Source of the DNA: Deltaproteobacteria bacterium
GTDB lineage: Bacteria > Desulfobacterota > Desulfobaccia > Desulfobaccales > 0-14-0-80-60-11
Reading direction: 5' to 3'
Length of the DNA stretch: 39,044 nucleotides
Assembly (NCBI GenBank): GCA_016874975.1
Contig: VGSQ01000017.1
Span: 1-39,044, forward strand
Shown here: positions 21,354 to 30,738 of the stretch, piece after piece
Position numbering within the stretch: the stretch's first letter is position 1
Layout: every line of letters begins with the position of its first letter
Notes under the pieces: model-generated
Databases searched by the model: none
Told to the model about the DNA's origin: nothing
The model's input: only the letters and a program-made list of their open reading frames with translations
Translations under genes and position numbers: made by a program

Positions 21354-21428
21354 GGCGGCATAGCCAAGAGGTAAGGCAGCGGTCTGCAAAACCGTTATTC
21401 ACCGGTTCGAATCCGGTTGCCGCCTCCA
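21354..21428 (+). tRNA. tRNA-Cys (GCA); its 3' half is the attachment site of the adjacent element
   Basis: GGCGGCA/TGCCGCC acceptor stem, CTGCAAA anticodon loop, CCGGTTCGAATCCGG T-arm, CCA. Confidence 0.97.
21384..21428 (+). repeat. att direct repeat (left), 3' end of intact tRNA-Cys
   Basis: ctgcaaaaccgttattcaccggttcgaatccggttgccgcctcca; identical copy at 28682. Confidence 0.95.
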
Positions 21429-21448: not shown

Positions 21449-21468
21449 TTGGTGTCCATATAGGTGTC
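21449..21468 (+). promoter_or_regulatory. Putative integrase arm-type site (left)
   Basis: ttggtgtccatataggtgtc, a tandem GGTGTC pair; identical 20-mer at 28541-28560 at the other end of the element. Confidence 0.7.
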
Positions 21469-21474
21469 CATGCG

Positions 21475-22590
21475 TCAGATTTTCTCCCCCACCAGGGCCT
21501 TCAGTTCATCCTTGCTCACCGTGTTGTAGCGCCTGAAAATGTTCATGGTCTTGTGGCCGGACGCCGCCATGATTCTAAAGAAGTCATGGCCTTGGAGCCG
21601 CCAGTTGTTGATAGCAGTATGCCGCAGGTCATGAAAGGTGAAGTTCTCAATTCCCGCCCGCTTCCTGGCCGTCTCAAATGCCCTCTGAAACGTGCTCCCA
21701 AAGGCTTTCCCCTTGTAAGGGAATACCCGCAACGCCGGCAGCCCCCTGGGCATGGCCTTGAACATCTCCACCATCTCCCCGTTCAAGGGCACTAACCGCC
21801 CTTCGTTCGTCTTGGTATGCTCCGGGTTCAGGCGGATGAAGCCTTCCTTCAGGTCCACTTGCCCCCACGTCAGGTTCAGTATTTCCCCTTGCCTCATGGC
21901 GGTATGGTAGGCCAGCTTGATTATGGGTCTCAAATGCTCCGGGCAGGCGGCCAGCAGCCGGGCATACTCTTCAGGGCTCAACACCCGGTCCCGCTCATTG
22001 TTCTCCTTTAGCAGCTTCACTCCCTGGGCCGGGTTGCGCTCCGCCTTGCCGTTCCTCACGGCTTTGCTGAAGATGGTCTTGAGACAAGCCACTTCCCGGT
22101 TAACCGTGGCCGGGGCCGTCAAGGTTGAGGGGGTGCGCCCGGACGGTTCGGCAAGCCGCTTCTGCCGGTAGGCTTCCACCAGGGCCGGGGTTATGTCCTT
22201 CAAAAGCTTATCCCCAAAATGGGACAGCAGGTTAGCTATCAGTTCCTTGTCCCGTCCATAGCTCCGCTTGGCCTTCACTTCGGGCAGGGCCAGATACCAG
22301 GCGGCCAGGTCCTTGAAGAGGGTGCGGGCGTCAGGGCTCTTCTTGATATGCCGTCCCTCCGTCCGGGCGCTCAGCACCTCCCGCAGCCGTTGCTCCGCCG
22401 CGGCCTTATTGGGGCCGATGCGCTCCCGGAGACGCTGGCCATCCTGGTAATACTCAATCCACCATACCCGCCCTGAAAACTTCGCCAGGGAAAAGCCGCA
22501 GGGTGATCCGTCCGCCATCTTCCCCGTGCACATCTTGGCCTTGACGCTGTTCCGCTTCCTGCACTCCGGGCATTCAATCAGCAGTCCCAT
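21475..22590 (-). CDS. int: Tyrosine recombinase/phage integrase with N-terminal zinc-ribbon-like motif
   Basis: AYHTAMRQGEILNLTW...FHDLRHTAINNW...SGHKTMNIFRRYNTV catalytic residues; N-terminal CPECRKRNSVKAKMC. Confidence 0.95.
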   Translation of the reverse strand: MGLLIECPECRKRNSVKAKMCTGKMADGSPCGFSLAKFSGRVWWIEYYQDGQRLRERIGPNKAAAEQRLREVLSARTEGRHIKKSPDARTLFKDLAAWYLALPEVKAKRSYGRDKELIANLLSHFGDKLLKDITPALVEAYRQKRLAEPSGRTPSTLTAPATVNREVACLKTIFSKAVRNGKAERNPAQGVKLLKENNERDRVLSPEEYARLLAACPEHLRPIIKLAYHTAMRQGEILNLTWGQVDLKEGFIRLNPEHTKTNEGRLVPLNGEMVEMFKAMPRGLPALRVFPYKGKAFGSTFQRAFETARKRAGIENFTFHDLRHTAINNWRLQGHDFFRIMAASGHKTMNIFRRYNTVSKDELKALVGEKI

Positions 22591-22591
22591 G

Positions 22592-22777
22592 TTAATTACC
22601 TCCCGCCTTCAGCCGGTTTTCCAGGGCTTCCAGGGCCAGGGGCAATAGAAAGGGTATGCCTCTCGTGCCCCGTTCCCATCGGTTAACCGTCACCGCATGG
22701 GTTCCCAACATCCGGGCCAGTTCCCTTTGCCGGACACCCCACTTCAAACGCCAATTTCTCAAGTCCGTCCCGGTCAT
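22592..22777 (-). CDS. Small Xre/Cro-type HTH protein
   Basis: 61 aa: LRNWRLKWGVRQRELARMLGTHAVTVNRWERGTRGIP. Confidence 0.8.
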   Translation of the reverse strand: MTGTDLRNWRLKWGVRQRELARMLGTHAVTVNRWERGTRGIPFLLPLALEALENRLKAGGN

Positions 22778-23890: not shown

Positions 23891-24367
23891 TTAAAGGATT
23901 GTTGCTGCGGTGTATAGTAACCAATTTATAAGTCTTAAAACCATAAAAAGATATAATGCAATGGTTATCTGAACCAATACCCCATCATCTCTATTTATCT
24001 TTCTGGCTGTTGGCATAAATAGTAATGATAAGAAAAAAGTGAATAATAACCTAACTAACCCTACAGTTTCATTATACCAAATATTATTGTCATGCACCAA
24101 CAAAGAATCAAAATAATGATGACATAAAATCATAGAGGCTAAAAGAGGCCAACCTTTTATTTTTCCTTTAATATAATGCTGGTCAATATCTAATGTCCTA
24201 TAAATCACCCCAGTAATTTTATCAGATAAAGGTTTAGAAAGTATTGCCTCACCCTCTTCGACTAATTTATAAGGAACTTGAGCATTTTTCTCCAACCATT
24301 CACTACAATGCTTACATTTAATCGCCTCATCCTGAATCTCCTCAGCACAATAAGGACATTTTTTCAT
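23891..24367 (-). CDS. Zinc-ribbon plus transmembrane protein (AT-rich cargo gene)
   Basis: MKKCPYCAEEIQDEAIKCKHCSEWL ribbon followed by hydrophobic segments; markedly lower GC than neighbours. Confidence 0.75.
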   Translation of the reverse strand: MKKCPYCAEEIQDEAIKCKHCSEWLEKNAQVPYKLVEEGEAILSKPLSDKITGVIYRTLDIDQHYIKGKIKGWPLLASMILCHHYFDSLLVHDNNIWYNETVGLVRLLFTFFLSLLFMPTARKINRDDGVLVQITIALYLFMVLRLINWLLYTAATIL

Positions 24368-24503
24368 TATGCCCCCTTTAAAACAGGATAAACCTACCAG
24401 CGCCAGCCTGACGTACAATTATCTCACAATACAACAAGTTATTTTAGAAAATCAAGTGGTTTCCCCCACTATCAAATCCTCTCGCATATGGCCTCCCTAC
24501 CCC

Positions 24504-24890
24504 CTACCCATGAGCCAAACGGGCCGTGGTGGGCGTCTCCTGCATCCTGAAGCGGTCACAGGGCAGGGCGCAGCCGTAGCGGCCCTTCTTCCTGTCCAGG
24601 CACCGCCCCCAGGCTTGGGTGGGGTTAGGTGAGACAGCCGGGCGGAAGTGGCCGCAGTCATGGCAGGTCAACAGCCGCTCCGGGGGAGGGGCCGGGGCCG
24701 CCTCTCCCCCCGTCTGGCAGAGATAATGTCTCACCTCATCCCGATGCTCGCGCAGCAGGGCCAGCAGGGGAGCCACTTGGGCCGGGTCCGGGTCGCCGGG
24801 GCCGGTGTAGTGGTACCTCACCCGGTCGCCGGAGACTTCGAAGCGGTAGCCGATGCGCCGGAGTTCCTGCAAAACCTGTATGGCCTTCAT
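24504..24890 (-). CDS. Hypothetical protein with Cys-rich C-terminus
   Basis: 128 aa; LLTCHDCGHFRPA..GRCLDRKKGRYGCALPCDRF; 4-bp overlap with the upstream gene. Confidence 0.65.
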   Translation of the reverse strand: MKAIQVLQELRRIGYRFEVSGDRVRYHYTGPGDPDPAQVAPLLALLREHRDEVRHYLCQTGGEAAPAPPPERLLTCHDCGHFRPAVSPNPTQAWGRCLDRKKGRYGCALPCDRFRMQETPTTARLAHG

Positions 24891-26518
24891 AGGTCGCCGG
24901 TCCTCGTGTCAAAAAGTGAGTGATTTTTTTTGCCCCCGCCCGCGGAAAAAACGTCCGTAATGTCCGTAATGTCCGTAACGTCCGGGGCCGGGGCCGTGGT
25001 TTCTTCGGACGTTTCGGACGTTTCGGACGTTTCGGACGTTTTTTCCAAACCGTACGAGCTAAAAATTTTCATAATTTTTTCTTCGTTCCAGATGAGCGCA
25101 GAAGCGCTATCGCCTGTCTGCCCTCTATCAAGCCCCAGGCCCCACAGTTTCCGCCCCATGCGCTGATAGCTTAGGTGGGCCTTTTCGGTCCTGTTCTCAT
25201 TGAAGGCTTCGGTGATTCGCTTAACGGGCAGGATGCCCCGCTCCACCTCACCGCGCAGGGAGTTCAGGGTTAGGAGGATTTGGGCTTCCAGGGAATCCAG
25301 CTTGTCAATCCCGCGTTGCCTTTCAAATTCCCGCACCAAGGTCCAGAAGGCTGCTTCCCGGTCGGGCTTCACCAGTCGGATGATTTGAAGTATTGGCTTA
25401 AGAATGTCCCCCAGGCGTCCCGCCGCAGGCTTCAGCATCTCCGGCAAGGCCGTCCCCAAGTGGTGCGCCCGCCAAGCAGTCAGGCGCTCCTTGAGGGGTC
25501 GGGCCGCTTCCGGGGTTACGTCGTCTTCAAACCGCCGGGAGGTCTGGGGCATATTCACCTGCAAGGCGCGGGTGTCAAGGATGTTGTGCACTTGAATGTT
25601 GGTAGCAATGATGGTGGGGCCGAAGACGTGATAGAAAACCGTGTCCTTGTGCGCTCCCTTTTCGGGGTAGAGCACTCGCGGCACGGCGATCCCCCTCTCA
25701 TATCGGCAAAGGACGATATCTTCACATCCCGCCCGCACAGCTTTTTCCCAAAAGTTCATGGTATCGAAAAAGATGGTAGCCTGATAGTGGTGGGCCAGCC
25801 GCACCAGGTATGCATCCCGCAGGGATTCCACATGGACGCCGCGCCGGGCCACGGTCACCATGCCCTTTCCGGTTCGAGTTTTTCCCCGTTCCGGCACGGC
25901 AAAGAGGCAAATTTCCGGGGAATACTGGCATGGCTCAAGCAGATAGGTGTGGAAATCCCAGGCGGCCAGAAGGTCATAATGGGCTTCCTGGGGGAGTTCG
26001 GAAATCCCTGCATGGTAGGCCACCAGGGCAGCATAGAGGGCGCTTGGGGCCTCAGCCCGTTCGTAATGGCGCAGCACCTCCCCTGCCCTGGGCAGGAGCC
26101 ACGGGATTTTATCGGGCGGAGGGGGTGCGTATGTCTCCACGTCCGTTTCCCAGGACGTGCACACCAGGAGTTCACCATCCGGTTGTTTCATAAGGAAGGC
26201 CGGCTCGCCTTCATGCTCCACCAGGTCCACCAGGCCGGGGAGCATGGCGCTGAGGGTGGGCTCGCCGTTGCCGCTCCTTCCCCCGGTGCGCGCCGCCTTC
26301 TTGCGGGCCTCCCTCACCTCATCCCGCAGAGCCTTGAACCATCCCTTCCCCAAAGAAGTTTGGGCCTGAAGGCCCTCGAACGCGTCTTCAATTTCCGTCG
26401 GGCTCAGGTCCACCAGCAGGGGGAGGGCATGGCGCAGCAAAGCCTTGGCCTGGTCCGGCGGGGTGTCCTTGGTGATCCCAGCCGTCGCCGCCTGCACCGC
26501 GTTCAGCTTATCCGACAT
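24887..26518 (-). CDS. Phage/satellite replication helicase-like protein
   Basis: Follows PrimPol with overlap; VPERGKTRTGKGMVTV P-loop-like motif, mid-protein ATPase-like region, C-terminal SET/TDI repeats. Confidence 0.65.
   Translation of the reverse strand: MSDKLNAVQAATAGITKDTPPDQAKALLRHALPLLVDLSPTEIEDAFEGLQAQTSLGKGWFKALRDEVREARKKAARTGGRSGNGEPTLSAMLPGLVDLVEHEGEPAFLMKQPDGELLVCTSWETDVETYAPPPPDKIPWLLPRAGEVLRHYERAEAPSALYAALVAYHAGISELPQEAHYDLLAAWDFHTYLLEPCQYSPEICLFAVPERGKTRTGKGMVTVARRGVHVESLRDAYLVRLAHHYQATIFFDTMNFWEKAVRAGCEDIVLCRYERGIAVPRVLYPEKGAHKDTVFYHVFGPTIIATNIQVHNILDTRALQVNMPQTSRRFEDDVTPEAARPLKERLTAWRAHHLGTALPEMLKPAAGRLGDILKPILQIIRLVKPDREAAFWTLVREFERQRGIDKLDSLEAQILLTLNSLRGEVERGILPVKRITEAFNENRTEKAHLSYQRMGRKLWGLGLDRGQTGDSASALIWNEEKIMKIFSSYGLEKTSETSETSETSEETTAPAPDVTDITDITDVFSAGGGKKNHSLFDTRTGDL
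24953..25039. repeat. Iteron-like 9-bp repeat arrays in inverted orientation
   Basis: GTCCGTAAT-type x3 plus partial (24953-24984) and TTCGGACGT x4 (25004-25039), with adjacent AT-rich tract 25040-25088. Confidence 0.7.
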
Positions 26519-27377
26519 GGGCCACCTCCTTTCCGGCGCGCAGGCCGGAAGCAATGGTGCGCTCCACCTCCCGCTCCCCTAGCCCGGTGTTGGCCGCCAC
26601 GATCGTCAGGAGTCCGAGCACGGTGCCTTCGGGCAGGTGTCCCGCCGCCGCCAGTTTGCCCAGGGCGAAGGCCGCACGGTTCAAGACGTTGTTCCGGTCG
26701 CCTTCCGGGGCCTGGGCCAGGCGGGCCAGTTCGTTCCGCAGGGCCGCCCGCCCGTACGGTGTCCCCAGGCTCCCGCCGTGCACCGCCGGGGGAGGGGCCG
26801 TGGGCCTCGGTTCGGGCCGTCGGGCCGCCTCAAAGAGCCAATCAGGACATGGGGCCAGGGGTTGAGTCAGGGGAGTCTGCCAGACGTACCGCCGCCCGGA
26901 GACGTGCAGGGAGGGCGGGGCCAAGACGTAGCCGCCGGCGGCCTTCAGGTCCGCACCAGGGCAGCCGGGAACCTTGGCCGGGAATCTCAGCCCGTCCCCT
27001 GGGTGGGCCAGGTAGTAGTGCCACCCCCCCCCGCCGGTCCGCACCGTGGGGGTTGTGGGCAGGGATCCGGGCAGCCGGTCCGGGTGGCCGCCGTTCCGCG
27101 GGTCCAGGTCTAGCACCACCAGGCCGGAGACGGGGCCGGTCGCAACCCCGATGTTTGCCAGGGGAGCCCGTCGCCACCAGTCCCGGATGACTTTCGGGTC
27201 GTTTGTGGCGCTGTTGACGCCATGCGGGGCCAGGCTCCCCAGGGGATGCTTGGCGGGATGCTGGCAATCCGCCTTGCCGCAGGCGCAGCGCCCGCCCACG
27301 GGCCACCACACGGGGAAGACAGCCCACCCACGGGCCGCGTAGCTCAGGGCCGCGTCCATGCGGGGGTTGCCGCTCAC
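26508..27377 (-). CDS. Bifunctional primase-polymerase (PrimPol) domain protein
   Basis: ALSYAARGWAVFPV...CQHPAKHP...ANIGVATGPVSGLVVLDLDPRNGG...TVRTGGGGWHYYLAHPG. Confidence 0.88.
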   Translation of the reverse strand: MSGNPRMDAALSYAARGWAVFPVWWPVGGRCACGKADCQHPAKHPLGSLAPHGVNSATNDPKVIRDWWRRAPLANIGVATGPVSGLVVLDLDPRNGGHPDRLPGSLPTTPTVRTGGGGWHYYLAHPGDGLRFPAKVPGCPGADLKAAGGYVLAPPSLHVSGRRYVWQTPLTQPLAPCPDWLFEAARRPEPRPTAPPPAVHGGSLGTPYGRAALRNELARLAQAPEGDRNNVLNRAAFALGKLAAAGHLPEGTVLGLLTIVAANTGLGEREVERTIASGLRAGKEVAHVG

Positions 27378-27580
27378 CGGGAGCCCCCACGGCGGCGGTC
27401 GCCGTTTCGGGGCGGGATTGCGCTTCGGGCGATAAAAGCCTCAAGGTCGGAAAGTCGGAAGCGCACCGCCCTCCCCAGCTTGACAAAGGGGATTCTCTTG
27501 GCCCCGGTCCAGGTGCGGAGAGTTAAAGGCGAAAGGTTGAGGAATGCTGCGGCCTGCTTGATGTTGAGAAGTGTTTCCAA
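27374..27580 (-). CDS. AlpA/excisionase-like HTH protein
   Basis: METLLNIKQAAAFLNLSPLTLRTWTGAKRIPFVKLGRAVRFRLSDLEAFI (MerR/excisionase HTH_17 type). Confidence 0.88.
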   Translation of the reverse strand: METLLNIKQAAAFLNLSPLTLRTWTGAKRIPFVKLGRAVRFRLSDLEAFIARSAIPPRNGDRRRGGSR

Positions 27581-27699
27581 GGGCTCACCTCCGTTTTTCT
27601 TATGAGGTTACGCCTTGATTTAGGTGGGTGATATTGACGAAAAGGGGGTGCCCCCAAAACGTCTTATTTTATTTCGGACGGGAATCTTGAAATTTTACT

Positions 27700-28362
27700 T
27701 CACAAGTCGCCGATGAGGGCCTTAACCCTTTCATGCCAGCGTTTGACTTGCTTTAGGCAGGCTTGGGTATCGAAGTCATAGGTGGGTTGTTTGCCCTCGG
27801 TTTCAGGGAATAGTCGCCAGGTTGCCTTTGTGAAGTTAAGGCCTTCATTCTCAATCAGGTCATAGGCTTCAAACATGCGGTCCATCTCGTCTTTATTCAG
27901 AATCCCCCCACCCCTGGGCGGAGTTTCGGGACGCTCCACCTTCAATCTCATGGTTTTTATAGCCTCTTCAAACTCAGCCATGAGGCGTTTTATGGGGAAA
28001 GTCAGGTCAACCGTCAGGTCCAGATACTTCCCGGCAAACAATTCGCTTCCATAGCTCACCGGGCCTTTCTGAAGCTCACCCAACCCCAGGGCTCCCATAA
28101 CTTGTTCACCCTCGTATGAGCCCACAAAGGCGGTTCGAAAGGCTTGCTCCAAGGCATGTTCAGGCGGCATATCAAGCCAGGCTTGCTCGTATATCTCCCT
28201 TTCGGGTTTCTCCGCATACTCTTGCAGCCGGGCTTCAAGCTCAGCCTGCACCTCTTCCCGGTTCGCCTCACAAAAATCTCGGAAAGCACGGGTGCGCCAC
28301 ATGGCTAACCACTTCTCGCGGTTCCTGATAGCGGTGATGGTGTGGGGGGGCCGGTCCGTCAT
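27700..28362 (-). CDS. Hypothetical protein (element, distal end)
   Basis: 220 aa from MTDRPPHTITAIRNREKW; upstream AAGAGGAGGTGG ribosome-binding site. Confidence 0.7.
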   Translation of the reverse strand: MTDRPPHTITAIRNREKWLAMWRTRAFRDFCEANREEVQAELEARLQEYAEKPEREIYEQAWLDMPPEHALEQAFRTAFVGSYEGEQVMGALGLGELQKGPVSYGSELFAGKYLDLTVDLTFPIKRLMAEFEEAIKTMRLKVERPETPPRGGGILNKDEMDRMFEAYDLIENEGLNFTKATWRLFPETEGKQPTYDFDTQACLKQVKRWHERVKALIGDL

Positions 28363-28540
28363 AAGCCACCTCCTCTTGTGGCCTCTCAAGGTAGGAACCC
28401 CCCAAGGCGGGGAGGATGCCGCCCTGTCCCTGGGGTAGCTAATCCCAGGTGAGGGGGGAAAGGGGTTGTCAGCTTGCGGCCCTACGCACAAAAGTCCGAA
28501 ATACGCGATTGAGTAATTTCAATGACTTACAGACAAGCCC

Positions 28541-28560
28541 TTGGTGTCCATATAGGTGTC
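28541..28560 (+). promoter_or_regulatory. Putative integrase arm-type site (right)
   Basis: Identical 20-mer to 21449-21468. Confidence 0.7.
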
Positions 28561-28681
28561 TAGACATCCCATTTTTAGGGCTATCTTGAGCATTCTTAAA
28601 CACAATAGCACATGACGTAAGTGCTTACAAGAGCTAAGATAAACTTACTTGGCATAACTCCCGCTGACGGCTTTGGTAGCA

Positions 28682-28726
28682 CTGCAAAACCGTTATTCAC
28701 CGGTTCGAATCCGGTTGCCGCCTCCA
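28682..28726 (+). repeat. att direct repeat (right), tRNA-Cys 3' fragment
   Basis: Identical 45 bp to 21384-21428; no 5' half of tRNA present. Confidence 0.95.
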
Positions 28727-28984: not shown

Positions 28985-29545
28985 CCAGGTCAGGCCAGGC
29001 CCTCATCCGCGCCCCCTCGTCAAACCGGACGTGCGGGTTTCCCGCATCCGGCTTACCGATGATCTCTCAGCCCCAGGCATTCGCAGGGAGTTGACGGCTG
29101 TGCCATTACAGGTAGATCAGCCCCTGGGACCTCAGGGCCTGATACCGCGAAGGCCCCTCCAGTTGCCGACCACGTCGTCGGCTCCGCGTCCTCATAAAGC
29201 AACGCAGCCGGGTCTGCACGTACCAGTTCACCTTTTTGCAGGCCAGGCGGGGATATCCAAAGCTGAAGTAGTTCCTCCAGCCCCGCAGATACCGATTCAA
29301 CTTGCCGATTACTTCGGCAAGGGGCTGTTGCACCCGCCTCTGGGTCATCTCCCGCAGTCGGCGCCGCACTCGGTTCATGGCCTGGGTCGAGGGCACGATG
29401 TTGAGATACCTGCCGCCGCCCCGCCGATGGCGGTCAAACCGAAAGGTAAAGCCCAGAAAATCCAGGCTTGCACCCGCCTTATGCAGGTTAACGACGAAGA
29501 TCGGCTCAATCACCAACAGCAAGGCCATCCGGACCACTCGGTCCT
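28985..29545 (-). pseudogene. Truncated group II intron: maturase C-terminus plus domain V-like RNA
   Basis: Minus ORF 29106-29537 FLGFTFRF..GRYLNIVPSTQAMNRVRRRLREMTQRRVQQPLAEVIGKLNRYLRGWRNYFSFGYPR; domain V-like AGCCGGATGCGGGAAACCCGCACGTCCGGTTT at about 29020-29054. Confidence 0.85.
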
Positions 29546-29548
29546 TAA

Positions 29549-29668
29549 TCCTACTACGTGGAATTATTGATTAACCCTTAACAAATGCTGACAAATCCCC
29601 CCTGACCCCCCTTTAGCAAAGGGGGGAAAATGAAAGGACTTTTGGACTACTGAACGCAGTAGCATTAG
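29549..29668 (+). repeat. 120-bp direct repeat, copy 1
   Basis: tcctactacgtggaattattgattaacccttaacaaat...gactactgaacgcagtagcattag; near-identical copy at 30620. Confidence 0.95.
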
Positions 29669-29689: not shown

Positions 29690-29980
29690 CTTTTCATGTG
29701 TTATGGGTGGGCCGGCGGCCCATGAGGGACTGCTATGAAAAGTTCCTTATCCCCCTCTCCCCGCGGGGGAGAGGGCTGGGGTGAGGGGGAAAACTTTTCA
29801 TGCTTTGTGAGTGGGCCTCAGGCCCATGAGCAACTGTCTTGAAAAGTCTTGGTGGCGCCGGCATCTTGCCGGTGCGGCGCACAGGCTGAAAGCCTGTGCC
29901 CAAAGGCGGCGGGCAGAGACGCCCGCCCCACCGGCCTTTTCATGTGCTATGGGTGGGCCGGCGGCCCATGAGGGGCTGCT
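29690..29980. repeat. Three copies of a palindromic ~50-bp repeat, with other palindromes between
   Basis: CTTTTCATGtgttatgGGTGGGCCggcGGCCCATGAG at 29690, related copies at 29793 and 29936. Interspersed CCCTCTCCCCGCGGGGGAGAGGG and GCACAGGCTgaaAGCCTGTGC. Confidence 0.85.
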
Positions 29981-30411
29981 CAGAAGGGTGCTGGAACAGA
30001 CCGAGCGCCGGGTGTTCCGCGGCGAGAAGGCGCCTGCGGGCGACGAGGTGGTCTCCTTCTTTGCTCACCCGGCAGGAGGCGATCTACGGCCGCCCGCCCC
30101 TGAAGACCGCGGCGGACGGCGGCTTTGCCTCCCGGGATAATCTGCGGCTGGCCAAGACCCGTGGCGTCAAGGACGTGATGTTCGCCAAGAAGCGGGGCCT
30201 GGGGGTGCTGGACATGGTCCGGAGCCTGTGGGTTTACCAAAAGCTGCGGAACTTTCGGGCCGGCATCGAGGCCAATATTTCCCGGCTGAAACGGGCCTTT
30301 GGTCTGGATCGCTGCACCTGGCAGGGCTGGCCCGGCTTCCGGCAATATGTCTGGAGCGCGGTGGTGTCCTACAATGTCCTGGTTCTGGGGATGTTGCTGC
30401 CGGCTCACTGA
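29976..30411 (+). pseudogene. Transposase remnant (ISNCY-like), 5'-truncated and frameshifted
   Basis: LLRRVLEQTERRVFRGEKAPAGDEVVSFF in one frame, then TAADGGFASRDNLRLAKTRGVKDVMFAKKRGLGVLDMV..VYQKLRNFRAGIEANISRLKRAFGLDRCTWQGWPGFRQYVWSAVVSYNVLVL in another. Confidence 0.85.
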
Positions 30412-30619
30412 GGTGGCCCCACCCCGGGCGTCCTGACCAGGGGAGAAGTCTGCCCGGAATAAGGGAAAATCAGGCCTAAAGCCCCGGCTAACCGGCAAAT
30501 TCGCTTTCATAGACTTCGATTAACCAGAGCGCAGGCCAGAAATGGCCTGCCGACGCTAACACACCCACATGAAAGCACGACTTTCTGGATGAGAACTATC
30601 TAAAACCGCCAGAACTTAG

Positions 30620-30738
30620 TCCTACTACGTGGAATTATTGATTAACCCTTAACAAATACTGACAAATCCGCCCTGACCTCCCTTTAGCAAAGGGGGAAAA
30701 TGAAAGGACTTTTGGACTACTGAACGCAGTAGCATTAG
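30620..30738 (+). repeat. 120-bp direct repeat, copy 2
   Basis: Near-identical to 29549-29668 (a few substitutions, 1-bp length difference). Confidence 0.95.

Follow-up and report, generated by a model that had tools for sequence, protein, structure and literature searches.

In SaPI origins, opposed iterons flank A+T-rich DNA, and initiator-binding repeats are found inside the replication gene itself in lambda O and in the repA genes of N15 and PY54. In lambda O, which is not a helicase, the iterons are longer than those described here and located in mid-gene; N15 RepA is a primase-helicase of the P4-alpha type. According to PMC7581432, the self-loading helicases of SaPI and SCC elements have their origin located directly 3' of the helicase gene, and SaPI Rep binds the iterons 3' of its own gene via its C-terminal domain. 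The C-terminal domain of SCC Cch2 likewise binds AAGTG iterons, which are short direct repeats located downstream of the Cch2 gene (PMC7581432).

The DNA analysed here, a stretch of 39,044 nt (the window), contains two opposed arrays of short iterons at the 3' end of a gene encoding a helicase-like protein, P0001. We consider it very likely that these arrays form a replication origin to which the initiator binds, with the C-terminal domain of the helicase itself as the reader. This would resemble the SaPI and SCC systems, but with the origin placed within the gene.

The integrative element and its iteron arrays

The arrays reside in an element that encodes an integrase, an AlpA-like protein, a Prim-Pol and the helicase-like protein (Table 1). 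The 3' part of tRNA-Cys recurs as a perfect 45-bp direct repeat at the other element end, so that the element is delimited to ~7.3 kb and is integrated in this tRNA gene. The genes of the AlpA-like HTH_17 protein, Prim-Pol and P0001 follow one another in this order on the minus strand. PICIs and phage satellites combine an integrase, an AlpA- or Stl-type regulator and a primase-helicase with packaging or helper-interference genes; no packaging gene was recognised among the ten element ORFs scanned. No usable switch was seen in the GC skew of the element.

Just inside both att copies there is an imperfect 35-bp direct repeat (TTGGTGTCCATATAGGTGTC..., 21449-21483 and 28541-28575), possibly comprising integrase arm-type sites. 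An A+T-rich ORF with a zinc-ribbon match (23891-24418; 68% A+T in this element block vs 42% overall) is probably a passenger gene that was gained recently. Beside the element, we observed a fragment of a group II intron maturase domain (PF08388, 29106-29537, minus strand) and the remnant of a DDE transposase (PF01609, 29896-30411, plus strand). The transposase remnant is flanked by direct repeats that are 94-98% identical and ~1.07 kb apart (29544-29668 and 30615-30738), and a 50-nt palindrome-bearing repeat occurs in three copies at 29690-29985.

Table 1. Coordinates of the iteron region and of the surrounding element in the window
Feature	Position	Strand	Remarks
att repeat, 3' part of tRNA-Cys (21354-21428)	21384..21428	+	45-bp direct repeat
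Tyrosine integrase	21475..22590	-	far end of element from primase/helicase genes
HTH_3 regulator	22592..22777	-	
P0003, small conserved backbone protein	24504..24890	-	comes after helicase gene
Helicase-like replication protein P0001	24887..26554	-	555 aa ORF
Disordered C-terminal tail of P0001, residues 505-555	24890..25042	-	predicted; pLDDT about 25; encoded by iteron region
Whole inverted-repeat unit	24944..25046		41-nt arms, GC-rich ~20-bp spacer (about 24985-25003)
Iteron array A	24953..24984	+	GTCCG cores at 24953, 24962, 24971, 24980; 9-bp period
Iteron array B	25004..25041	-	four opposed cores, CGGAC on + strand; TTCGGACGT x4.2
A+T-rich tract	25040..25088		71% A+T, flanks array B; possible unwinding element
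C-terminal winged-helix domain of P0001, residues 422-500	25055..25291	-	proposed iteron reader (AlphaFold)
Prim-Pol primase	26508..27377	-	PF09250, E=3.4e-38
AlpA-like HTH_17 protein	27374..27580	-	
Single GTCCGAAA octamer, possible extra site	27672..27679	-	upstream of AlpA/Prim-Pol/helicase operon
Single GTCCGAAA octamer, possible extra site	28494..28501	+	adjoins start of ORF 27700-28491
att repeat, other element end	28682..28726	+	45-bp copy, 100% identical

TRF resolves array A as 3.6 copies of GTCCGTAAT with a 95% match and array B as 4.2 copies of TTCGGACGT with a 100% match, and the arms that contain them (24944-24984 and 25006-25046, 41 nt each) are 88% complementary with 21 nt between. 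The octamer GTCCG(A/T)AA is present in 10 copies in the window against 1.27 expected, a number reached in 0 of 100 shuffles. Similarly, the opposed-core detector yields 8 units at the array, and at least 6 were obtained in none of 40 dinucleotide shuffles of the whole window (39 kb). The opposed rows of 9-bp repeats are confirmed at the position given by the original prediction. Their composition needs to be amended to four cores in array A, giving a 4+4 layout in which the fourth core (24980-24984) is without a full tail.

The spacer between the arms, described as GC-rich by the original prediction, is 79% GC. The A+T-rich stretch that it placed beside the arrays is also present, ranking in the top 0.3% of the 49-nt windows of the gene and the top 2.5% of those of the element; its position is not conserved in homologues, and it partly encodes winged-helix residues. 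The whole unit falls within the last 160 nt of the helicase ORF. The 9-bp period keeps the frame, as had been claimed, and the arrays encode SET/TDI-type peptide repeats, with TSETSETSETSE and DVTDITDITDV as the minus-strand peptides.

Comparison of the arrays across homologous loci

A strict detector found arrays in 9 of the 20 loci matching P0001, compared with 2 of 400 shuffles, although these loci (the window included, all from one phylum, 59% identity to remote) are relatives and hence not statistically independent. All nine arrays are located where the helicase gene ends, either within its 3' end or shortly after the stop codon. When one mismatch was allowed, a score of at least 5 was reached at 10 of the 20 helicase 3' ends and in 2 of 400 shuffles, but in 0 of 60 control windows taken from these genes. 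Five of the 20 3' ends scored 0 in this test, four of which show irregularly spaced repeats by eye; no clear array was seen in L137.

Homologues retain opposed arrays with an 8-10-bp period at this location, but the core letters differ and have been altered jointly in both arms. The core is GTCCG in the window and L200, TCAGA in L191 and L127, ACTTCAG in L128, CTCCCT in L132, CACTT in L196 and GTAAC in L198, and GGTAGAG-type cores at ~10 bp were recognised by eye in L129, L130 and L192-L195. The spacers of the relatives L272-L274, L277 and L282 are A+T-rich, unlike the GC-rich spacer of the window.

Between the window (codons ACG TCC GAA / GTT ACG GAC) and L191 (ACA TCA GAA / GTT TCT GAC), whose protein is 59% identical to P0001, the core differs by a coupled C>A / G>T change, which is synonymous (serine) in arm one and converts Thr to Ser in arm two. 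These codon changes are exactly those that keep both arms as one DNA word. The original prediction had named peptide repeats that persist with other codons as evidence against an origin, and this pattern is indeed seen in L191 and L127, which keep a TSE-type peptide with different third bases. However, the second arm has changed together with the first, and because protein constraint does not explain this matching change, the conserved peptide does not refute the origin.

The repeats could still be regarded as low complexity of the protein (TSE, TDI), with the DNA period as a by-product of tandem codon duplication; the period of three codons, the kept frame and the TSE-like peptides of L191 and L127 are consistent with this. 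Nevertheless, the two opposed arms are complementary to each other and change together, the tail is predicted to be disordered, and the L132 arms (TCC CTA / AGG GAG) encode unrelated peptides. The peptide is likewise lost and the array kept in L196, and the arrays lie past the stop codon, and are thus non-coding, in L128 and L198, as they are non-coding in L258 and several phages. A protein-only origin of the repeats is hardly credible to us and was rejected in view of the co-changing arms, the L132 peptides and the non-coding arrays. Taken together, arrays without the peptide, non-coding arrays and joint core changes imply conservation as DNA, so that the comparison of DNA with protein across homologues, proposed along with the original prediction, comes out on the DNA side (L132, L196, L128 and L198) and favours a DNA-level signal as far as sequence comparison can tell. 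Peptide-pattern searches for P0001 relatives in genome and viral contigs gave none, and those with VapE or AAA_25 returned the query only, the patterns being too specific in both cases; tblastn of P0001 against named phages gave nothing.

The arms might instead act as RNA, forming a hairpin that serves as a transcription terminator or an mRNA stabiliser at the operon end. The minus-strand RNA of the window folds with -57.8 kcal/mol (z -4.6), and z is -6.4 in L191 and -5.8 in L127; tracts of A and of U are located at the stem base. However, opposed arrays of any kind fold, the stem is inside the ORF and ahead of the stop codon, and at other loci (L128, L258 with 2+5 units, L277 and L311) the arms are 95-100 bp apart or have unequal units, a layout that does not suit a hairpin. 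We therefore rejected the hairpin, which appears very improbable given the in-ORF stem and the distant or unequal arms elsewhere. As a candidate origin within the helicase gene, the arrays are supported by their apparent conservation as DNA and by the joint core changes across homologues, and tandem repeats inside a replication gene that seem to be conserved in this manner are what an in-gene iteron origin would present.

The helicase-like protein and its winged-helix domain

P0001 itself has no match in Pfam, NCBIfam, PHROG or PDB, its homologues give weak matches only, and its family profile finds no relative in PDB. Profile searches did not place it among the DUF927 or the D5/Primase_Cterm helicases. 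The family alignment reveals conserved acidic positions and, as a Walker A-like motif, GKTRTGK. Homologue L128 appears to be fused to Prim-Pol in a single open frame, and L127 is apparently fused to a DnaG-type primase, based on one member of the family alignment that matches the dnaG and Toprim models; the L127 reading frame extends upstream. Because of these motifs and the primase fusions, we infer that P0001 is a replicative helicase of an unclassified family. Its true start is probably the ATG at 26518, as in homologue L321.

AlphaFold predicts a winged helix right before the array-coded tail. Foldseek matches of this domain are winged-helix proteins, with weak scores, and single-sequence folding of the C-terminal part gives a pLDDT of 47. 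A PDB fold search with the full model also gave weak winged-helix matches (best probability 0.98, F93 of STIV) and no match with E below 0.03. As these fold matches are weak, we claim no link to SaPI Rep.

Winged-helix identity divides eleven homologues into two groups, each with its own iteron type, TC(C/A)G or GTAGAG. This agreement supports, without proving, the winged helix as a putative iteron reader, because shared descent could also yield it. Stronger evidence for the coupling of reader and site comes from L321 (G008:C168), which belongs to the same bacterial family as the window and matches it in Prim-Pol (68%) and in the first 73 aa of the helicase (58%). L321 also carries the small gene that follows the helicase in the window element. 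Its helicase core is unrelated to that of the window and its tail repeats differ too, with TCGGCA present 8 times in 270 nt, whereas none of 500 shuffles gave more than 2. It thus seems that a single block comprising the helicase core, the winged helix and the iterons was exchanged in L321. L321 and L191 have 187 bp of the helicase tail in common (92% DNA identity) next to unrelated cores, an apparent recent cassette exchange.

Arrays beyond the family, proposed mechanism and known systems

When viral contigs were scanned, irrespective of gene content, for a pair of GTCCG copies facing a pair of CGGAC copies, 39 stretches were returned; in several of these the repeats are coding, or no neighbouring gene could be recognised. 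Among the stretches whose neighbour belongs to a Pfam family, the array is at or after the helicase 3' end in L152 (Prim-Pol and AAA_25), L161 (DnaB-N and AAA_25), L163 (VapE) and L175 (AAA_25), and in L008 (AAA_25) and L063 (DUF5906) from an earlier scan; L173 is an exception, where the array neighbours an FtsK-like gene. Many matches of a single-orientation pattern scan were discarded as simple coding repeats, and a stricter GTCCG pattern gave 11 loci in genome contigs. In the window's phylum, where VapE (PF05272) is rare, 3'-end arrays accompany 7 of 21 high-scoring AAA_25 loci versus 0 of 9 low-scoring, housekeeping-like ones. Of 40 Prim-Pol regions of this phylum, 6 have such arrays, but the array of L310, counted among them, may be noise due to high GC; as a control for both counts, shuffles give arrays anywhere in 5 of 305.

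The host genome itself holds a second element with such an array, which has a GTTTC core and comes after an AAA_25 helicase (L258 / L323, host genome C5). In L323 (4005-4156), opposed 9-bp GTTTC iterons in a 2+5 layout directly follow the stop of a helicase with AAA_25 and an NrS-1-like HBD. Opposed 9-bp arrays are also located ~90 bp past the helicase stop in Paenibacillus phage LunBun (VapE) and Roseobacter phage CRP-811 (RepA).

This association bears on a further alternative, namely that the arrays are control iterons for copy number, incompatibility, partition or repression, with either the helicase, the AlpA-like protein or HTH_3 as the binder and the origin elsewhere. Two isolated GTCCGAAA octamers inside the element are near gene starts, so that the binder of the array may also act at promoters, for which these octamers are possible sites; the operon does encode an AlpA-like protein. 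However, in unrelated elements and phages alike the arrays accompany the helicase gene, and they are exchanged jointly with the helicase core. Hence we consider a control site unlikely.

For the origin, we propose that the iterons would be its initiator-binding core, inside the codons for the disordered tail of the helicase. Once the element is induced, the winged helix encoded directly before the arrays would bring the helicase onto the iterons, and because the arrays are head-to-head, two oligomers would be loaded facing opposite ways. Melting of the A+T-rich DNA nearby would then allow priming by the adjacent Prim-Pol. All steps from binding through double-oligomer loading and melting to replication itself are inferred by analogy with SaPI Rep and SCC Cch2, and the helicase activity is inferred as well.

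The logic of such an origin is ordinary because its layout follows the SaPI/SCC rule; the new parts are the unclassified helicase family, the in-gene origin and the cassette swap tying reader to site. With slightly more belief than doubt, we suggest that these unclassified helicases have the origin in their own last codons, that core, reader and iterons form one exchangeable cassette, so that one recombination event in a conserved element backbone would reset the replicon specificity, and that unrelated phage and island helicases may commonly have their origin laid out as opposed short-period arrays at the gene 3' end. As a sequence rule, opposed 8-10-bp arrays of any core at the 3' end of an initiator helicase gene would indicate candidate origins, which is useful for uncharacterised islands and phages, whose origins are seldom known. 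Homologous helicases whose iteron cores differ, in some cases by a single base, form a natural test set for the co-evolution of winged helix and origin and for changes in replicon incompatibility.

Among known systems, lambda O and the repA of N15 and PY54 share the in-gene repeats. The lambda O parallel drawn by the original prediction holds in this respect, but the SaPI and SCC helicases are the apter comparison. The LunBun VapE and CRP-811 RepA arrays are alike in their opposed 9-bp units and unlike in being non-coding and belonging to unrelated helicase families with unrelated cores. SCCmec Cch2, with CCPol-MP and a putative origin, resembles the window in the C-terminal binding to downstream repeats (PMC7581432), which is proposed here. 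It differs in having three iterons only, which are non-coding, in binding for which inverted repeats are unnecessary, and in an A-family polymerase as the primase. In comparison with SaPI Rep and its origin, the window array is inside the coding sequence with a GC-rich spacer, the helicase is not of the DUF927 or D5 type by profile search, and the host presumably belongs to a different bacterial phylum. The iterons are opposed as in SaPI origins, whereas the A+T tract is outside the arms instead of being flanked by them. The likeness consists in a small integrative element with iterons at the helicase gene 3' end, a separate primase, and an initiator helicase with a C-terminal DNA-binding domain, which is predicted in the window and described for SaPI Rep in PMC7581432 with reference to Ubeda et al.
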